Shown here piece by piece: positions 41,041 to 49,147 of a stretch of 64,000 bases of DNA. The DNA is from Arthrobacter sp. FW306-2-2C-D06B (GTDB lineage Bacteria > Actinomycetota > Actinomycetes > Actinomycetales > Micrococcaceae), in the NCBI RefSeq assembly GCF_021789175.1, contig NZ_CP084560.1:124001-188000 (forward strand), given 5' to 3'. Positions within the stretch are counted from its first letter, which is position 1, and the number at the start of each line of letters is the position of its first letter. A program made the position numbers and the translations under genes. A model generated the notes under the pieces. It was given only the letters and a program-made list of their open reading frames with translations. It had not been told where the DNA came from and did not search any database.

Positions 41041-41144
41041 TCTTGCTCCTCATGATCGTCCTTGATGCCTGAACTGCGGGCCTGGCAGGCCGTGAAAGCA
41101 GACTAGCCGACGCAGGGCCAGGGGACTAGGGTCTGGTCCCCGCC

Positions 41145-41284
41145 GACGCTCGCTCACCTATGGTTTGTCCCCTCCCGACGCTCGCTCACCTACGGGGCCT
41201 TTCGGCCGAACGCCCGCTCACCTATGAGGCCTTTCGGCCGAACGCCCGCTCACCTACCGGGCCGATGGCCAAACGCTCGGTTGG
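41145..41284 (-). repeat. Dispersed intergenic repeat, cluster C (four units plus a partial)
   Basis: Units at 41145-41163, 41177-41195, 41209-41228 and 41241-41260 with 32-bp period, then a partial AACGCTCGGTTGG near 41271. The plus-strand core is ACGCTCGCTCACCTATG or ACGCCCGCTCACCTATG; units 3 and 4 also share GGCCTTTCGGCCG-type flanks. The 270-bp gap 41041-41311 holds nothing else. Confidence 0.88.
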
Positions 41285-41311: not shown

Positions 41312-42700
41312 TCACGTGCGGAGGGATGCGGCTTCCTCAAGGTTCTGGCCTTTGGTCTCAGGAGCCATGAAGTAGCTGACTGCTGCGCCGATGAGTGCGA
41401 TGCCTGCCGCAATCCACATGGTCCCGGAGAGGCCGAGGTGCGTCAGTGCTAGCGGGGTAGCGAAGGTGCCGATGGCGGCTCCGACCCGGCTTGTTCCGGT
41501 GCGCAGGCCGACGGCGGTCGCCCGCACCTTGGTCGGGAAGAGTTCGTTGGGGTAGATCCATTCGAGAATTGAAGGTCCGCCGTTGAAGATGGCGTAGAAG
41601 GCGAAGGCCAGTGCGATCAGGGCGAGCGGCGCGTTTGGGAAAATTGCGAGGAAAAGCAGCCCGACGCCGGAGAGGACAAAGCCCCAAATCAGGACCGGCC
41701 GGCGGCCGAGTTTGTCCACGACCAAGAGAGCGACGATGTTGCCAACGAGGAAGAAAAGGTTGATCAGTCCGTAGCCGATGTTCGCCTCGTCGCCAGACTG
41801 GAGGTTGAACAGTGCGAGGATCTGTGGACCGAAGGCGTAGATCGAGAACAGCGTGACGATGGTGCAAGTCCAAAAAATTGAGATGAAGACAACTCGATTC
41901 AGATAGCCGCCAGTCAGCACGAGCCGGAAGGCTTTCGCGGTACTGAGCTTGGCTGCGTTCGGATCGTGTGCCGTGATTCCGTCCAGAGTCGCGCCCTCCC
42001 CGATGGTCTTCTTGAGGATGTCGAGGGCTTCCTCGCGACGGCCTTTCCCGACGAGCCAATGGGGAGATTCGGGGATGGTGGCCCTTGCGATGAGGATCAG
42101 CACCGCGGGAACGGCAGAGGACAGCAACATCCATCGCCACCCATCATCCAAGGACAGAAGCCAATAACCGACGAAGGCGGCTACCGTCGCCCCGACAAAC
42201 CACATCGCATTGAGGCCGCCAAGGAGTCGAGCACGCCAATTCTTTGGGACAAATTCTGCGACGAGAGCTGTTGCAATGGGGTAGTCAGCGCCCACCGCGA
42301 TGCCGATCATGAGCCGCAGGACGAACAGTTGCCACGGTTCCTGAACGAAAAACTGGGCGATGGAGAACACGATGATGGCAATGAGGTCGATCGTGTACAT
42401 AAGCTTGCGCCCGATTTTGTCGGTCAGGTTTCCGAAGATCAAGCCTCCGAGGAAGACGCCGATCAGTGCGGAGGCGCCAATGAGACCGTTCCACCAGTCA
42501 TTCATATGCCAGGCGGGAATTATCTGCACCAAAGCTATGCCGATGATTGCGAGGATATATCCGTCGAGAAACGGACCCCCTGAACTGAATAGGGTAAGGC
42601 GTTTGTGGAACGAATTGAGCGGTGCCGAGTCGAGGGTAACCTCGACCGTTTTGGTTGGGAGGAGCATGATGGTTCCGATCCGGGAAGGGGATAGCGTCAT
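41312..42700 (-). CDS. MFS transporter of the sugar/acid porter group
   Basis: 462 aa, twelve helices. The D-R-x-G-R-type loop after helix 2 (GNLTDKIGRKLMYTID), its second copy (VDKLGRRPVLIWG) and the PESPHWLVGKGRREEA motif after helix 6 are those of the sugar porter/metabolite:H+ symporter families. It is the last gene of the 48017-41312 operon, 33 bp after ridA, so it probably imports the substrate of that pathway. Confidence 0.85.
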   Translation of the reverse strand: MTLSPSRIGTIMLLPTKTVEVTLDSAPLNSFHKRLTLFSSGGPFLDGYILAIIGIALVQIIPAWHMNDWWNGLIGASALIGVFLGGLIFGNLTDKIGRKLMYTIDLIAIIVFSIAQFFVQEPWQLFVLRLMIGIAVGADYPIATALVAEFVPKNWRARLLGGLNAMWFVGATVAAFVGYWLLSLDDGWRWMLLSSAVPAVLILIARATIPESPHWLVGKGRREEALDILKKTIGEGATLDGITAHDPNAAKLSTAKAFRLVLTGGYLNRVVFISIFWTCTIVTLFSIYAFGPQILALFNLQSGDEANIGYGLINLFFLVGNIVALLVVDKLGRRPVLIWGFVLSGVGLLFLAIFPNAPLALIALAFAFYAIFNGGPSILEWIYPNELFPTKVRATAVGLRTGTSRVGAAIGTFATPLALTHLGLSGTMWIAAGIALIGAAVSYFMAPETKGQNLEEAASLRT

Positions 42701-42733
42701 TGGATACCCCAGCAGATCCGTATTTTTATACGG

Positions 42734-43114
42734 TCACGCTGTTGTTGTTGCGATGGCATCGATTTCGATGCGCTTCTCGCCCCTGAACCTTGCAACCTGA
42801 ACGGTGGTGCGGGGAGGCAAGGGGTGGCCGCTGAGCCTTGTGAGGTACGCGGCGTTGTATTGATCAAACTCGTCGAGGTCGGCTAGGAAGACGGTAATTT
42901 TGAGAAGGTGCGACAAACTCGACCCCGCGCACTTGAGGGCCGCTTCCAGGTTGTCGAAGGCCTGGACAACCTGGCCAGAGATGTCGGCTGGTACGGTTCC
43001 GTCGTCGCAAGACGGTACCTGGCCGCACATGAAGATGAGGCCGCCGACTGCTGCGGAGGCCGAATAAGGCCGGGGATTGCCGTCGGTGAACTGGGTTCTC
43101 ACGATGGTGTTCAT
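42734..43114 (-). CDS. RidA family enamine/imine deaminase
   Basis: 126 aa. GQVPSCDDGTVPADISGQVVQAFDNLEAALKCAG and the Arg in PPRTTVQVARF (the carboxylate-binding Arg of active RidA) followed by EKRIEIDAIAT are all present. RidA hydrolyses reactive enamines/imines to ketones and ammonia, suggesting an imine intermediate in the pathway. The ATG at 43114 overlaps the previous gene's TGA by 4 bp; the frame extends to 43162 inside that gene. Confidence 0.88.
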   Translation of the reverse strand: MNTIVRTQFTDGNPRPYSASAAVGGLIFMCGQVPSCDDGTVPADISGQVVQAFDNLEAALKCAGSSLSHLLKITVFLADLDEFDQYNAAYLTRLSGHPLPPRTTVQVARFRGEKRIEIDAIATTTA

Positions 43115-43854
43115 GCGTCCGGTACCAGGAATTTCCGGGACAACTGGTACATCTTCTGCCATTCTTCTTCACTGACTTTCAGGGGTTTGGCGGGAATGGA
43201 ACTTGTCTTGAGATCGATCGGGGAAGCCGCTGGCAACACGATGATGCTGGTCACCTCTCGTTCCTGATGCCCGTCGGGAACTGAATCGATCAGGTCGTGG
43301 GGAGGCTCTTGGCTGGCGATGACGCCTTGGCTGGTGAGGGTCCGGTCTTCGATTCGGGCGAGGTTCCCCGTCTCGTTGCCTGCAGTGGATGTGACCAGGA
43401 TGATCGTCCTTTGCAACGAAGCTGAGCGCCGGATCAACAGGTCGTTCCAGAGCTGCGCTTGGATGCAGGGACTGCTGGTTCGAGCCGCGGAGACTTCGTC
43501 CGCGGGGTAGTCCAAGGCACAATCTATGAGCTGGAGGGCCGTCCGCAGCCTGGGTTGGCGGGTGGTGACGAGCTCCGTCAGGTTCCCGCCGCCCCAGAAG
43601 GCGGGGGCCGCCGTCGCCGGCTGGGACGGTGTTTCCCAGTCCGCGTCAAGCAGTGCCATGAGTTGACTGAGTCCGTCATGCTGGTCGCATTCCGAGCGGA
43701 GAATCGCGAAGGCTCCCTCCTGGGCCTCGGCTGGGTCTGCCCCTGCCGCACAAAGTGCCCTGTAAGCTGCCTCCTTGATTTCGCGCGGCTGGATGGAAAT
43801 CGTCCGGGCCGCTGGATCGGCTTTGCGTGTCGTCCGGGCGGTGGTGTCAGACAT
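43111..43854 (-). CDS. Uncharacterised 247-aa protein in the LysR-linked operon
   Basis: Not firmly recognised. Residues ~20-60 (SIQPREIKEAAYRALCAAGADPAEAQEGAFAIL) look like the helical start of DUF3726/Ldh-type proteins; the rest has short beta-like segments and no clear catalytic motif. It overlaps the upstream M19 gene by 8 bp and ridA by 4 bp, so it is clearly part of the coupled operon. It may be a non-catalytic partner of a neighbouring enzyme; this is inference. Confidence 0.7.
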   Translation of the reverse strand: MSDTTARTTRKADPAARTISIQPREIKEAAYRALCAAGADPAEAQEGAFAILRSECDQHDGLSQLMALLDADWETPSQPATAAPAFWGGGNLTELVTTRQPRLRTALQLIDCALDYPADEVSAARTSSPCIQAQLWNDLLIRRSASLQRTIILVTSTAGNETGNLARIEDRTLTSQGVIASQEPPHDLIDSVPDGHQEREVTSIIVLPAASPIDLKTSSIPAKPLKVSEEEWQKMYQLSRKFLVPDA

Positions 43855-44839
43855 GCGCGTGTTCCTTCGTGGTGTCCATGACTTCGGTGAAGAGCCGGCT
43901 CCAGTTGCCGCCCATGACAGCGCCGATGACGTCGTCGGTAAGGCCTGTCGAGGACAAACCCTCCGTTAGCCGGGGGAAGTCCAGGGGGCCGCTGAACCAG
44001 TTTGGCCACAGTGGCCACGTGGGGGCATCTTCTGGATGAGTGGGTTGCCAGCGGCCATTGCGGAGCCAGCCGACAAATTCCTGGTCCCAGCCTCTGGTGC
44101 AGTCACTTCCGATGCCGATACTGGTGGGACCGTACAGGTCGACCATTCGAGAGACCATGCTGCAGAAACTTTCGAGGGTGACCCCCTCCCCGCCGCTGAC
44201 AGTCGGATACAAGCAGCAGCCGATGACGCCGCCCCTCTCGACGAGGGGCTGGATGACCTCGTGGGGTTTGTTGCGGGGGGTGTCATAGAACCAGAGAGGG
44301 TTGGAATGGGTGATGGAGACCGGGACCGCTGAGGCTTCGATCGCCTCACGGCTCGTCCGATATCCGACATGCGAAAGGTCGATGAGCATTCCCACCCGAT
44401 TCATCTCCTCCACAACTACTCGGCCATACCGGGTGAGGCCGGCATCGCTTGACTCAAAGCACCCGCTGCCGAGAAGGTTTTGGTTGTTATAGGTCAGTTG
44501 GGCTATCCGGACTCCGAGTCGATGGAACAGCTCGACGTTTCGGTAGTCGTCTTCGAACGGGCTTGTGTTCTGGAATCCCAGGAACACGGCAATCCTGTTC
44601 TGCCGCTTCGCTTTGTCGATGTCCTCTCCGGTTGCTGCAAGGAACACTAGATCCTGATTGCGGTTCGCGAGTTCCAGCCATTGGCCGACCGACCGGAGGG
44701 TATCGGCGGCGTTTTCCCAGACGGCGCAAGTGGCGTTGACGGCGCTGACGCCGCCAGAACGCAGTTCCTCCAGGACAGGACGGTTCCAATTGCTGATCTG
44801 GAGTCCGTCCACGACGGTAAGCCGCTCATGAAGACTCAT
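43847..44839 (-). CDS. Divergent M19 (renal dipeptidase-fold) protein lacking part of the metal site
   Basis: 330 aa. The barrel and several M19 landmarks are clear: LIDLSHVGYRTSREAIEAS (His157), VPVSITHSNPLWF (His178), GIGSDCTRGW (Asp). The N-terminal H-x-D pair (normally DGHND) is replaced by DGLQI (residues 11-15) and the bridging Glu by Gln90 (FLGFQNTSP); LTHN is LTYNNQ. A normal two-zinc peptidase is therefore unlikely. I recall a proteobacterial subfamily with the same DGLQ and GFQN replacements, so this is a distinct, conserved type. ATG at 44839 overlaps the previous stop by 4 bp. Confidence 0.8.
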   Translation of the reverse strand: MSLHERLTVVDGLQISNWNRPVLEELRSGGVSAVNATCAVWENAADTLRSVGQWLELANRNQDLVFLAATGEDIDKAKRQNRIAVFLGFQNTSPFEDDYRNVELFHRLGVRIAQLTYNNQNLLGSGCFESSDAGLTRYGRVVVEEMNRVGMLIDLSHVGYRTSREAIEASAVPVSITHSNPLWFYDTPRNKPHEVIQPLVERGGVIGCCLYPTVSGGEGVTLESFCSMVSRMVDLYGPTSIGIGSDCTRGWDQEFVGWLRNGRWQPTHPEDAPTWPLWPNWFSGPLDFPRLTEGLSSTGLTDDVIGAVMGGNWSRLFTEVMDTTKEHAHV

Positions 44840-46560
44840 CGTGCCGAGTCCTGGGGCGCGGTGGGGAAGAGCCAATCATCGGCGTCGGTGCTGTTATTGA
44901 TGTCCGCTGCCCGGGGTGCTCCGCTGAACAGGGTGACGCGCAGCCAGTCGGTGGATTGGGGGCTGAAGTTGTTCATCCCGTACGTTGCCAACTGAAAGCG
45001 TTGTGTGCTCAAGGGCAGAAACTCGGCGTCGACAAGGTTGTCCCGGAGCTCTCCGTAGTAGTAAGGCCGTGTTTGTTGAACGCGTGCTGCGGCAAAGCGG
45101 TGCATAGGGTAGGCCAGGAGAAACTCCGTGATGCTACTGTGGGCCGGAAAACTTTCAAGGTCCTCCGTGAGGGCGCTGATCCGGCGAGCGATGTCAGTGC
45201 AGTGTTCTACCGTGCCAGGGCGGCGGCCAGCGCGTGGTGCCCGACGGGGTTCTTCATTGGCTTCGGAGGAGAACCAGTAGTAGCTTGCGCGTTCCGGGTC
45301 CACGAAGTCGTAGGCTCGGACCCAGCCGTAGTTTCTGTCGAGCAACTGCTTCAGCTCCCAGCAGCGCATGGTCGTGTCGGTCCATGTGGTGTCGGGAACC
45401 GTGAGGAGGGCCTCCGCAGCGTCGTCAAAGTCGGAGCGCAGTTCAACGACTATGGAGGCGAAGAGTCCGCGGGCTTCCGGACTCAGGGCCGTCGCGACCT
45501 CGTGGAGTCGGTCGAGCACCCGAGCGGGCTCGGACCCGGTGGACCTGTATGTCTGCAAGTCTGCGAGGAGTTGCTGTAGTTGAAGCCTGATCGCTTCGGC
45601 GGGCAGGAACGGGGCAGTTTCGAGTGCGTGTTTCTCTGCGAGATAGCGGTCCGCCTTTCTGAGCAGCTCCGCTACACGTGCGAGGTCAGGATGGTCGGGG
45701 CGATAGTCCTGGCCGAGACCTGCAGCGAGGGGAACTTCCCGCAACCTGCACCACGCGTCCAGATAGCCGGGGTGGTTGATGACGAAAGGGACCATGCCCA
45801 GGCCGGTCGCGTTGCCCAGTCCCAGATATTTGCTCCACTCGGTATTGAGGGACGCGGCCGTGGTGCCGCGTTGCACGGCCTTTTCGCGGGCGACGTGTTC
45901 CACCATGTCCATGCTGAGCTCGCGCAGGAGCCAGGCGGTGAGCATTTGGGAGCGGTATGGGACGGCCAAGGGGTGGTCCGTAGGGAAGTCCGCGAACTCC
46001 TTCAGGCCGAATTTTCCATTGCCGTAGAACGCGGTGCTGCGGATGAGGTACGGGCTGGGTCCGATGAAGTCGACATCCGGTTGGTCGCCGGCGGCTAGGC
46101 AGTCGCTGACGTAGTCAAAGAAGCGGGCACTTCGATTGGCTCGGGTGAGGATGATCGTGTCCGGGTCAACGCGGCCGCGCTCCTGGACGGGGACATTTCG
46201 TCGCAAGTCCGCTTCCCGTTCGGGGTTGAGATCGCCTTCGATGAGGGCTGCGGTGACGTCCCAGGCATCAGCGATGACGCGGTCCGTGCGTTCGCTTTCA
46301 TCCAAGGTGCGGGAAAAGGCGATGAAGCTCAGCTTCCGGCCTTCGGCATCCACGGTGTAGACCGCCGTACCGCAGCCCTCCGCATCGAATTCGAGTCGGG
46401 TACGGGTTACGGACCATTTCCGGGCTGCGGCTCGACGGAGGAAGGTGCGGGCGAAACTGTGACGTGTGGCCCAGGCTCCGTTCATGTCGGTGCCGGAGAG
46501 AACCTCGTGTGGAGGCCGTAGCTTGGGTACGACTCGGTGGTCCAAGAGTGTCATGATCAT
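44836..46560 (-). CDS. Large uncharacterised protein (574 aa) in the LysR-linked operon
   Basis: No family recognised. It is soluble, Arg/Leu/Asp-rich, without signal peptide or membrane segments. Notable stretches include IGPSPYLIRSTAFYGNGKFGLKEF, YRSQMLTAWLLRELSMDMVEHVAREK and ITEFLLAYPMHRFAAARVQQTRPYYYGELRD. I see no nucleotide-binding loop or metal motif. It overlaps the ALDH gene and the M19-like gene by 4 bp each, placing it centrally in the operon. It may be the unidentified catalytic core of the pathway. Confidence 0.72.
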   Translation of the reverse strand: MIMTLLDHRVVPKLRPPHEVLSGTDMNGAWATRHSFARTFLRRAAARKWSVTRTRLEFDAEGCGTAVYTVDAEGRKLSFIAFSRTLDESERTDRVIADAWDVTAALIEGDLNPEREADLRRNVPVQERGRVDPDTIILTRANRSARFFDYVSDCLAAGDQPDVDFIGPSPYLIRSTAFYGNGKFGLKEFADFPTDHPLAVPYRSQMLTAWLLRELSMDMVEHVAREKAVQRGTTAASLNTEWSKYLGLGNATGLGMVPFVINHPGYLDAWCRLREVPLAAGLGQDYRPDHPDLARVAELLRKADRYLAEKHALETAPFLPAEAIRLQLQQLLADLQTYRSTGSEPARVLDRLHEVATALSPEARGLFASIVVELRSDFDDAAEALLTVPDTTWTDTTMRCWELKQLLDRNYGWVRAYDFVDPERASYYWFSSEANEEPRRAPRAGRRPGTVEHCTDIARRISALTEDLESFPAHSSITEFLLAYPMHRFAAARVQQTRPYYYGELRDNLVDAEFLPLSTQRFQLATYGMNNFSPQSTDWLRVTLFSGAPRAADINNSTDADDWLFPTAPQDSAR

Positions 46561-48017
46561 GCCTTTTCGGGTGCAAGGCGCAGGTACGCAGTCTTTTCAT
46601 GGGTGAAGAAGGCTGCAGCGGCTGCATTGTTCTGTTCGCGGGGCCCGGCGAACGTCGAATCTTTCATTCCGCCGAATGGTGCGTGCAGTTCCGATCCAGT
46701 GGAGGGTGCATTGACCTTCACCAGCCCGGCGTCCAAATAGGTGACGCATTTTCGGACGGCGCGTTCATCGCTCGTGAACACTGCTGCTGTCAGCCCGAAG
46801 TCTGTGCTGTTCGCCAACGCAATGGCGTCATCCAGGGTGGAAGCCCGTAGGACCGTCACAACGGGTCCGAACACCTCTTCATGGCAGATAGTCAACGATG
46901 CCGGCCCGGTCAGGACAGTAGGCGGAACAAAACATCCGTCCGAGTCCGGAACCGCGGCCTGGGCGATGATTTGCCCGCCTTCGGAGAGAGCTTGGCCGAT
47001 CGCCGATGTGATCTCGTCCCGCGCGGAAGCCGACACTACCGGGCCAATCTGCACCGACGGATCCGTGCCCGGCCCCACAGACAAAGCGGCAACCTTCTCC
47101 CTCAGCTTTGTGAGGAATTCCTCATGCCCGTCGCCGACGAGAATTATCCGGCGCGTTGCTGTGCATTTCTGGCCGGTGGATCCCATGGCCGCGTTGACGG
47201 CACTACTGGCAGCCAGTTCAGGGTCGGCGTCAGGGAGAACCAGCGTTGCATTGTGTCCGCCTAGTTCCATTTGCAGCTTCGCTCCGCGACCACAGACGAG
47301 GGCACGGATCTGGTGGCCCACGGGAACGGAGCCGGTGAATGTCACCCCGGCGACTTTCGGATGGGACACAAGTTCAGAACCGAGCGAACCTGGTCCTAGA
47401 AGCAGGTTCGCGACGCCGGCTGGAAGCCCGGCTTTCGCAAGGATGTCCATCAAGAGGACGGAGACGCCGGGGGTGTTGCTTGCCGACTTCCAAACCACCG
47501 TGTTCCCATGCAGCAAGGCTGGGGCGATTTTCCAGGCCGGGATCTGCAAGGGGAAATTCCATGGAGTGATCACGCCGACGATGCCCAGGGGTCTGCGGAC
47601 TGTAACGATGCGCTCGTCAGGGTGGCTGGAAGGATAGTCAGCGCCAACCGGGTTACGGGCAGAGCCGGCGTGGTAGTCAAATGTGTCAGCCGAGGCGTCG
47701 ACCTCCAGCCGCGATTCGGCCAGTGTCTTGCCGTGTTCTGCTGTCATCGTCCTAGCGATCTCTTCGGCTCGTTCGCGGATCATCTGGGCGACAGTCGACA
47801 AGACGCGACCTCTGGCCAGAATTCCGAGCCGGTCCCAAGCTGGCGCAGCCACAGTGGCAGCCTGTATCGCCTTTGCCAGATCCTCGGAACCTGCTTGACG
47901 GTACGCGGTAACCGCTTCGCTCGGTGCTGCCGGGTTGAAACGGTAGGTGATAGCCCCGGCGCTTTCTATCCAGGCGCCGTTGATGAAACTGCTGGCGGGC
48001 TCGGTCAATACGGGCAT
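46557..48017 (-). CDS. Aldehyde dehydrogenase (semialdehyde type, close to alpha-ketoglutaric semialdehyde dehydrogenase)
   Basis: 486 aa. Asn154 (TPWNFP), Glu251 (QMELGGH) and Cys285 (STGQKCTATRR) are the catalytic residues. The C-terminal PFGGMKDSTFAGPREQ resembles the PFGGRKGSSYGPREQ of alpha-ketoglutaric semialdehyde dehydrogenases, so a dicarboxylate semialdehyde substrate is suggested. AGAGG precedes the ATG. First gene of the minus-strand operon and divergent from the LysR gene. Confidence 0.9.
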   Translation of the reverse strand: MPVLTEPASSFINGAWIESAGAITYRFNPAAPSEAVTAYRQAGSEDLAKAIQAATVAAPAWDRLGILARGRVLSTVAQMIRERAEEIARTMTAEHGKTLAESRLEVDASADTFDYHAGSARNPVGADYPSSHPDERIVTVRRPLGIVGVITPWNFPLQIPAWKIAPALLHGNTVVWKSASNTPGVSVLLMDILAKAGLPAGVANLLLGPGSLGSELVSHPKVAGVTFTGSVPVGHQIRALVCGRGAKLQMELGGHNATLVLPDADPELAASSAVNAAMGSTGQKCTATRRIILVGDGHEEFLTKLREKVAALSVGPGTDPSVQIGPVVSASARDEITSAIGQALSEGGQIIAQAAVPDSDGCFVPPTVLTGPASLTICHEEVFGPVVTVLRASTLDDAIALANSTDFGLTAAVFTSDERAVRKCVTYLDAGLVKVNAPSTGSELHAPFGGMKDSTFAGPREQNNAAAAAFFTHEKTAYLRLAPEKA

Positions 48018-48094
48018 TATCTAACCTCTTGCTGATTGGTGATTTGTGACTGTCCTCACGATCAACGGTAGACCTCGCGGTCCCGCCACTGAAG

Positions 48095-48135
48095 TATCTA
48101 TTTGACGGCCATCGATATCTGTTTAGTCTTGTTCT
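48095..48135 (+). promoter_or_regulatory. LysR promoter and candidate LysR binding site
   Basis: TTGACG (48102-48107) and TAGTCT (48124-48129) are a -35/-10 pair with a 16-bp spacer; the ATG follows after 6 nt, so the lysR mRNA is leaderless. TATC (48095-48098) and GATA (48114-48117) form an inverted pair with a 15-bp spacer across the promoter, consistent with autoregulation and control of the divergent operon. Confidence 0.55.
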
Positions 48136-49020
48136 ATGAACCTTCGACGCCTTGAACTGTTCGTCGCAGTGGCTGAGGAATTGCATTTCAATCGCGCGGC
48201 CGAGCGCCTGCACATGGCCCAGCCACCCCTTAGTCAGCAGATCCGAAAGCTCGAAGAGGAATGCAAGGTGCAGCTCTTCGTGCGCAATTCGCGCAACGTC
48301 CAACTCACCGCCGATGGCGAACTGCTTTTGACGCACGCCAGGAAAGTCCTGAGCCAATACGCGGCCATGGCCTCGGCACTGCGTCAGGCACGAAACGGGG
48401 AAATCGGGCGGCTTCGCCTGGGCTTCGTCTCGTCGGCCGCGATTTCAGCAATCCCACCCGTCGTCAGATACCTCCGATCTGAGTGGCCGGGCATCGAGCT
48501 TGATCTCAGGGAAGTAACCACGGATGAACAGATGGACCTCATCGCCGCAGGAAACTTGGACGCTGGCATCGCGAGGGAGGTCAGGGCGGGTCCGGGGATA
48601 TCCCAGACCCTTCTGCGAAATGAACCCCTTGTAGTTGCGGTTGCTTTAGATCATCGGCTGGCCGCCCGCTCCTCGGTAAGTTTGGGAGAATTGGCGGGGG
48701 AGAAGTTCATTGCCTTCCCGAGGAGCCGCATTTCGCGGTTGTTCGACCACATCGCAGCGCTACTCCATTCCGCGGACGTCGAGTTCGACATCGCTCAGGA
48801 AGCTGTTCAGTTCCCCACAATCCTGGGCCTCGTGGCTGCGAGGCTCGGCGTCGCTGTTGTTCCGGATTCCCTCAAGGCATTTGCTATTCCGGGGCTGACC
48901 TACCTGGACATCGAGGACTCGAGTGCGATATCGAAGGTCAGCTTGATCTGCAGTTCGGAGATGTCGGAGTCCCCACTTGTGAGCAAACTCAGGATCGCGT
49001 GCCTCGACGCGCTGATCTGA
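48136..49020 (+). CDS. LysR-family transcriptional regulator
   Basis: 294 aa. The winged helix-turn-helix occupies 1-60 (LRRLELFVAVAEELHFNRAAERLHMAQPPLSQQIRKLEEE); the effector domain has the usual two lobes (RLRLGFVSSAAISAIPPVV, NEPLVVAVALDHRLA). The sequence type is that of regulators of aromatic/carboxylate catabolism (CatR/BenM-like start). It is divergent from the ALDH-to-MFS operon, its presumed target. Confidence 0.9.
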   Translation: MNLRRLELFVAVAEELHFNRAAERLHMAQPPLSQQIRKLEEECKVQLFVRNSRNVQLTADGELLLTHARKVLSQYAAMASALRQARNGEIGRLRLGFVSSAAISAIPPVVRYLRSEWPGIELDLREVTTDEQMDLIAAGNLDAGIAREVRAGPGISQTLLRNEPLVVAVALDHRLAARSSVSLGELAGEKFIAFPRSRISRLFDHIAALLHSADVEFDIAQEAVQFPTILGLVAARLGVAVVPDSLKAFAIPGLTYLDIEDSSAISKVSLICSSEMSESPLVSKLRIACLDALI

Positions 49021-49065
49021 GGGACACTTGGCTTGAAGCAGCCACGCTCCGTGGAAATGGCCCGT

Positions 49066-49147
49066 ATATGTGAGCGGGGGTCCACCCACAACCGTTGATA
49101 TGTGAGCGGGCGTTCGGGAAACGGCCCTGATATGTGAGCGGGGGTCC
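49066..49147 (+). repeat. Dispersed intergenic repeat, cluster D (three units)
   Basis: Plus-strand core ATATGTGAGCGGG at 49066, 49098 and 49129, about 31-32-bp period, followed by GGTCC or CGTTCGG. It fills the gap between the convergent lysR and gntR genes. Confidence 0.85.

Follow-up and report, generated by a model that had tools for sequence, protein, structure and literature searches.

The DNA stretch analyzed here, 64,000 nucleotides of contig NZ_CP084560.1 from Arthrobacter sp. FW306-2-2C-D06B (hereafter, the window), carries a six-gene operon with a divergent LysR-type regulator gene at positions 41312-49020. The operon encodes an aldehyde dehydrogenase (ALDH), a 574-amino-acid protein of no known family (U574), an M19-like protein, a 247-amino-acid protein (U247), a RidA enamine/imine deaminase and an MFS importer. 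With somewhat less than even confidence, we interpret it as one form, the RidA type, of a widespread pathway that acts on betaine-like 2-carboxylated N-heterocycles, most likely of the homarine (N-methylpicolinate)/picolinate class. An earlier note, made from the sequence alone, had proposed the catabolism of a nitrogen-containing compound through an imine step, a proposal supported by our analysis; the substrate class could be narrowed to the betaine type because the transporters are exchanged among relatives of the operon and because some relatives are linked to mgd genes, which encode N-methylglutamate dehydrogenase (Mgd). If correct, this interpretation would tie many unannotated genes to the turnover of betaine-type N-heterocycles in soil and sea, reveal one pathway with two alternative ends and sharpen a loose label, given that mgdABCD are listed as sarcosine oxidase.

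Gene neighborhoods of U574 relatives

The search for relatives of U574 yielded 1,173 proteins. Neighborhoods were compared across 85 loci, comprising the best 80 places of a pattern-based scan and five plasmid loci; this is not a random sample, it includes near-identical relatives, and some of the contigs end near U574. Within 6 kb of U574, an M19-like gene was present at 82 loci and a DUF3726-type gene, the counterpart of U247, at 83. Both associations are more than chance, and the U574/M19/DUF3726 trio is conserved in Actinomycetota, Pseudomonadota and Bacillota as well as at single loci of other phyla. The refuting circumstance named earlier, homologues of the uncharacterized proteins turning up apart from the other genes, does not hold for the trio, which travels together, but ALDH (62/85), RidA (38/85) and the transporter vary; LysR was found within 6 kb at 45 loci.

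In many relatives, a transporter of the BCCT (betaine/carnitine/choline) family takes the place of the MFS protein (within 6 kb, BCCT at 29 loci, an MFS relative at 21, both at 1). Ten loci of Halomonas, Pseudomonas and Caballeronia display the order LysR-ALDH-M19-BCCT-U574-DUF3726, with RidA in nine (the short contig L087 being left out), and nine Bacillota loci show U574-M19-DUF3726-ALDH-IclR, with BCCT in seven. Micrococcaceae whose U574 is about 50% identical carry BCCT beside the order LysR-ALDH-U574-M19-DUF3726-RidA; five such loci (L024, L026, L027, L035 and L106) have BCCT, and the search for an MFS relative there found none. A glycine-betaine ABC transporter, purU and folD adjoin the operon in Roseateles, and the transporter and purU do so in Shinella. 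For 20 proteins taken from representative loci, the family assignments (BCCT, DUF3726, IclR, RidA, Ldh_2, MTTB and others) were confirmed with Pfam.

RidA and a full-length Ldh_2 reductase exclude each other within 6 kb of U574: 38 loci have RidA only, 8 have Ldh_2 only, none has both and 39 have neither (Fisher p 0.0076, ignoring kinship). The window operon is of the RidA type. In the comparison for Mgd, 7 genomes or records of the Ldh_2 type included 5 with a beta subunit of at least 60% identity, against none of 27 RidA-type genomes (p 7.5e-5, again ignoring kinship), a limit chosen after the identities were known; one of the five, at 60% identity, has no place in the tree, and the best identity among the 27 RidA-type genomes was 55%. 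The completeness of the genomes compared is not stated. This comparison covered 27 of the 38 RidA-type loci and 7 of the 8 Ldh_2-type loci (L093 was left out), three of them as a plasmid record only. Plasmid pPGA1_262 of Phaeobacter inhibens DSM 17395 harbors two U574 operons. One (L100) has BCCT and lies near mgd, with an Ldh_2 gene that reads in two frames and is whole in strain M626 (L096); the other (L101) is of the RidA type and sits beside dimethylsulfoniopropionate demethylase genes.

Genes of the "sarcosine oxidase" family occur near U574 at 4 of the 85 loci, in Hyphomonadaceae (L068, about 10 kb off), Roseateles (L095), Phaeobacter (L096) and Shinella (L099), and also at L100, which is outside this set. 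At the latter four loci, a regulator gene lies between these genes and the U574 operon, of the GlxA family in Roseateles and Shinella and of the helix-turn-helix type in Phaeobacter. The Phaeobacter beta subunit (L100) is 73% identical to the Rhizobium leguminosarum copy beside gmaS, mgs and dmm and 79% identical to the Paracoccus aminovorans copy beside dmm, compared with 51-54% for copies near glyA, serine ammonia-lyase or fdhA. In the tree, the U574-linked copies L095, L099, L100 and L111 group with the gmaS/mgs/dmm-linked and dmm-linked copies (support 100/100). Based on these identities and the grouping, we take the U574-linked genes to be mgdABCD, so that Mgd is present in the Phaeobacter, Roseateles, Shinella and Hyphomonadaceae relatives. 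In public records, the mgdABCD-grouping genes of L095, L099, L100 and L130-L133 are annotated only as sarcosine oxidase family. PMC13390433 reports that some strains lack the upstream trimethylamine genes and still keep mgd linked to TmaR, its regulator of the AraC type.

U574, U247 and the M19-like protein

U574 matches no Pfam or NCBIfam profile, and no fold match was found when its confident AF2 model (pLDDT 93.2) was compared with solved structures; the tree and the structure model of U574 were built from the same 71 rows. Among the matches listed, the source names of its relatives are only hypothetical or uncharacterized, and no published assignment was found in the literature searched, which excluded the 2026 homarine paper discussed below. 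Within the genus, a U574 relative is present in 13 of 206 genomes and falls into three kinds, with 76-100%, 49-50% and 34-35% identity. In one genome (G151), it is split in two pieces. At two loci of about 35% identity (L104 and L105), a third module type is found, in which U574 and DUF3726 diverge from an IclR-like gene and M19.

U247 as a single sequence likewise has no match among Pfam and NCBIfam profiles. Only profile-profile comparison places it in DUF3726 (91.8% probability, E 7e-7), and its fold is a shortened Ldh_2 type. Because the loci also served to iterate the search model for DUF3726, its E-values there are not independent; the profile-profile comparison is a separate test. U247 is not a novel family but a strongly diverged member of DUF3726 whose fold is of the Ldh_2 type, which leaves U574 as the one protein of no known family among the two left uncharacterized earlier. 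The Ldh_2 reductases, including delta1-piperideine-2-carboxylate reductase (1wtj), 3uoe and ureidoglycolate dehydrogenase, are nonetheless longer (about 340 versus 247 amino acids), their Foldseek TM-scores with U247 reach only about 0.5, and their "SHG" segment is not conserved in U247/DUF3726.

The M19-like protein matches PF01244 with 236.7 bits (cut-off 26). The canonical binuclear metal site of M19 enzymes consists of His-x-Asp, a bridging Glu, His and His. Our protein has Leu-x-Ile and Gln in place of His-x-Asp and the bridging Glu, such that three metal ligands are lost while two His and an Asp are kept. Across 83 aligned M19-like rows, the lost His, Asp and Glu are found in none, and Gln occupies the Glu column in 81; the two remaining His and the last Asp, by contrast, are invariant in all 83, bearing out the earlier observation that part of the metal site is missing. 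The nearest solved relative, 2i5g, displays the same loss; given that it is shared by the aligned rows and 2i5g, the partial loss of the metal site is a subfamily trait.

The structure 2i5g is presumably PA5396 of the dgc (dimethylglycine) cluster, which introduces a different class of substrate. According to PMC8079746 and PMC12093977, the dgc clusters of pseudomonads and Vibrio include a dipeptidase-type gene; no function for the 2i5g protein was found in the literature consulted. An aliphatic betaine or N-methylated product (proline betaine/N-methylproline, carnitine-like or butyrobetaine-like) might accordingly be degraded instead of a pyridine ring, with ALDH producing a dicarboxylate from the opened chain. 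BCCT and glycine-betaine transporters would suit any betaine, and carnitine-type genes (BKACE, 3HCDH and ECH) lie near U574 in a marine relative. However, dgcAB are not in the operon, and the conserved module contains no Rieske, DgcA-like or other demethylase; moreover, an N-methylglutamate product would be easier to reconcile with a ring nitrogen that carries one methyl group than with one that carries two. We consider an aliphatic substrate unlikely.

Putative route and alternative explanations

The enzymes flanking the trio are consistent with an N-heterocyclic substrate carrying a 2-carboxylate. The best NCBIfam model of ALDH is alpha-ketoglutaric semialdehyde dehydrogenase (448.7 bits, below the equivalog cut-off of 770), supporting the semialdehyde step suggested earlier. 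The active site of RidA comprises an Arg and a Glu, and in alignment with TdcF both are kept (R102 and the Glu of EIDAIA), in support of the imine step. For LysR, the best model is AlsR (243 versus a cut-off of 430), with BenM at 162 versus 600, so that its earlier placement in the carboxylate-catabolism type stays a suggestion, and for the MFS protein it is the aromatic acid:H+ symporter (2A0115; 187 bits, below the cut-off of 418.55). RidA hydrolyzes 2-imino acids, alpha-ketoglutaric semialdehyde dehydrogenase acts on 2,5-dioxopentanoate, and Ldh_2 enzymes, for example 1wtj, are reductases whose substrates are cyclic 2-carboxylate imines. Betaine importers, Mgd in relatives and this enzyme chemistry together point to a (methyl)imino C5 semialdehyde, derived from a 2-carboxylated N-heterocycle, as the simplest shared intermediate.

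We infer the following substrate, reactions, reaction order and assignment of ring opening. The MFS protein would import the substrate, and LysR would sense the substrate or its product. U574, the M19-like protein and U247 may jointly open the ring and remove one carbon, yielding 2-(methyl)imino-5-oxopentanoate; homarine or picolinate plus O and two H2O balances to the imino C5 semialdehyde plus formate, as a matter of bookkeeping only. Oxidation of the aldehyde by ALDH would then give 2-iminoglutarate or the N-methylated equivalent, an imine from which RidA would release 2-oxoglutarate and (methyl)amine by hydrolysis. Where the pathway takes its other form, the full Ldh_2 reductase would replace RidA and reduce the imine to N-methylglutamate, which MgdABCD would demethylate to glutamate. 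At its most far-reaching, and in our estimate quite unlikely, this scheme would have U574 found a new enzyme family, possibly with a new fold, and form with the metal-stripped M19 and the shortened Ldh_2-fold protein a three-part complex that opens the rings of N-methylpyridinium- or pyridine-2-carboxylates with no classical oxygenase involved, the C5 imine having two exits, through RidA (2-oxoglutarate and amine) or through Ldh_2 and Mgd (glutamate and methylene-tetrahydrofolate).

Several observations weigh against this route. No oxygenase is encoded in the operon, a two-electron oxidation is required before the ALDH step, and no catalyst for an oxidation was identified ahead of ALDH. For comparison, the picolinate (pic) and trigonelline (tgn) pathways are pyridine-carboxylate catabolic routes with aldehyde oxidation, and the operon lacks the oxygenases or hydroxylases that open the ring in them. 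At nearly half of the loci (39/85), RidA and Ldh_2 are both absent from the 6 kb around U574, although RidA lies further out at L097 and L098; Mgd lies near U574 at only 4 of 85; and the identity limit of the Mgd comparison was set late, as noted above. The window genome is without Mgd, its sole soxB above the cut-off (51% identity) falling outside the Mgd clade, and the mgd argument therefore reaches the window only through relatives. Elsewhere the neighbors include MTTB, carnitine-type genes, an aminotransferase with SSADH and other ABC transporters, which suggests that the module is not limited to a single substrate. Finally, Ruegeria THAF33 (L130) has a Rieske block next to mgd in a stretch with no annotated U574, and in Phaeobacter such a block sits beyond the U574 operon; this block may be the real homarine operon. 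The genes beside mgd in Ruegeria (Rieske alpha, PDR/VanB reductase, LysR and BCCT) could be an alternative operon that acts on an N-methylated compound.

The diversity of neighbors also bears on whether recruitment has turned the operon of Arthrobacter to some unrelated nitrogen compound, such that the betaine link would hold only for its relatives. The MFS protein in place of BCCT and the lack of Mgd in the window genome are in line with recruitment, as is the existence of other module types that carry aminotransferase, SSADH and different ABC genes. Nevertheless, the Micrococcaceae at 50% identity pair the same gene order with BCCT, and we regard recruitment as very unlikely.

The homarine operon is reportedly named homABCDER, a name that would match a set of five enzyme genes and one regulator gene. 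The Arthrobacter operon could simply be an actinobacterial copy of the published homarine (hom) operon, in which case Ferrer-Gonzalez et al. 2026 (Nat Microbiol) would have assigned it already; PMC13390433 cites that study and has Mgd taking part in homarine catabolism. Among relatives of the operon, four have mgd nearby, and in three of these a regulator gene stands between the two. In contrast, the window genome has RidA and no Mgd, and the Rieske block near mgd is another candidate for the hom operon, so we find the identity of the two rather unlikely. The undescribed route envisaged in the earlier note is doubtful all the same, as the 2026 homarine paper may describe the operon.

Operon layout and genomic setting

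The seven-gene layout reported earlier was recovered in full, with every open reading frame in place (Table 1). The junctions ALDH/U574/M19-like/U247/RidA are overlaps of 4, 4, 8 and 4 bp in succession, the gap between RidA and MFS is 33 bp, and LysR diverges from the operon. For the M19-like protein and RidA, the coordinates start at ATG; the open reading frame list begins at an upstream TTG for the former and further upstream for the latter.

Table 1. Features of the operon and its regulator, in window coordinates
Feature	Position	Strand	Basis
LysR-type regulator	48136..49020	+	PF03466/PF00126
Divergent intergenic region LysR-ALDH, 118 bp	48018..48135		Gap measured
Aldehyde dehydrogenase (ALDH), motif GQKC	46557..48017	-	Profile scans (Pfam, NCBIfam)
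U574, 574 amino acids, no known family	44836..46560	-	No Pfam/NCBIfam match; AF2 pLDDT 93.2
M19-like protein, degenerate metal site	43847..44839	-	PF01244; nearest solved chain 2i5g
U247, 247 amino acids, divergent DUF3726 with shortened Ldh_2 fold	43111..43854	-	Profile-profile and fold match
RidA enamine/imine deaminase	42734..43114	-	Profile match; Arg102 and EIDAIA Glu kept
MFS importer (Sugar_tr/MFS_1)	41312..42700	-	Profile match

The G+C content of 41312-49020 is 0.605, versus 0.641 for the window. Intergenic tandem repeats with a 32-bp period flank the operon/regulator pair in opposite orientation, at 41126-41270 and 49053-49147. Their core, ACGCCCGCTCACNTAT, which has 0 sites when the pattern is read backwards, occurs at 62 exact sites in the genome (30 forward and 32 reverse).

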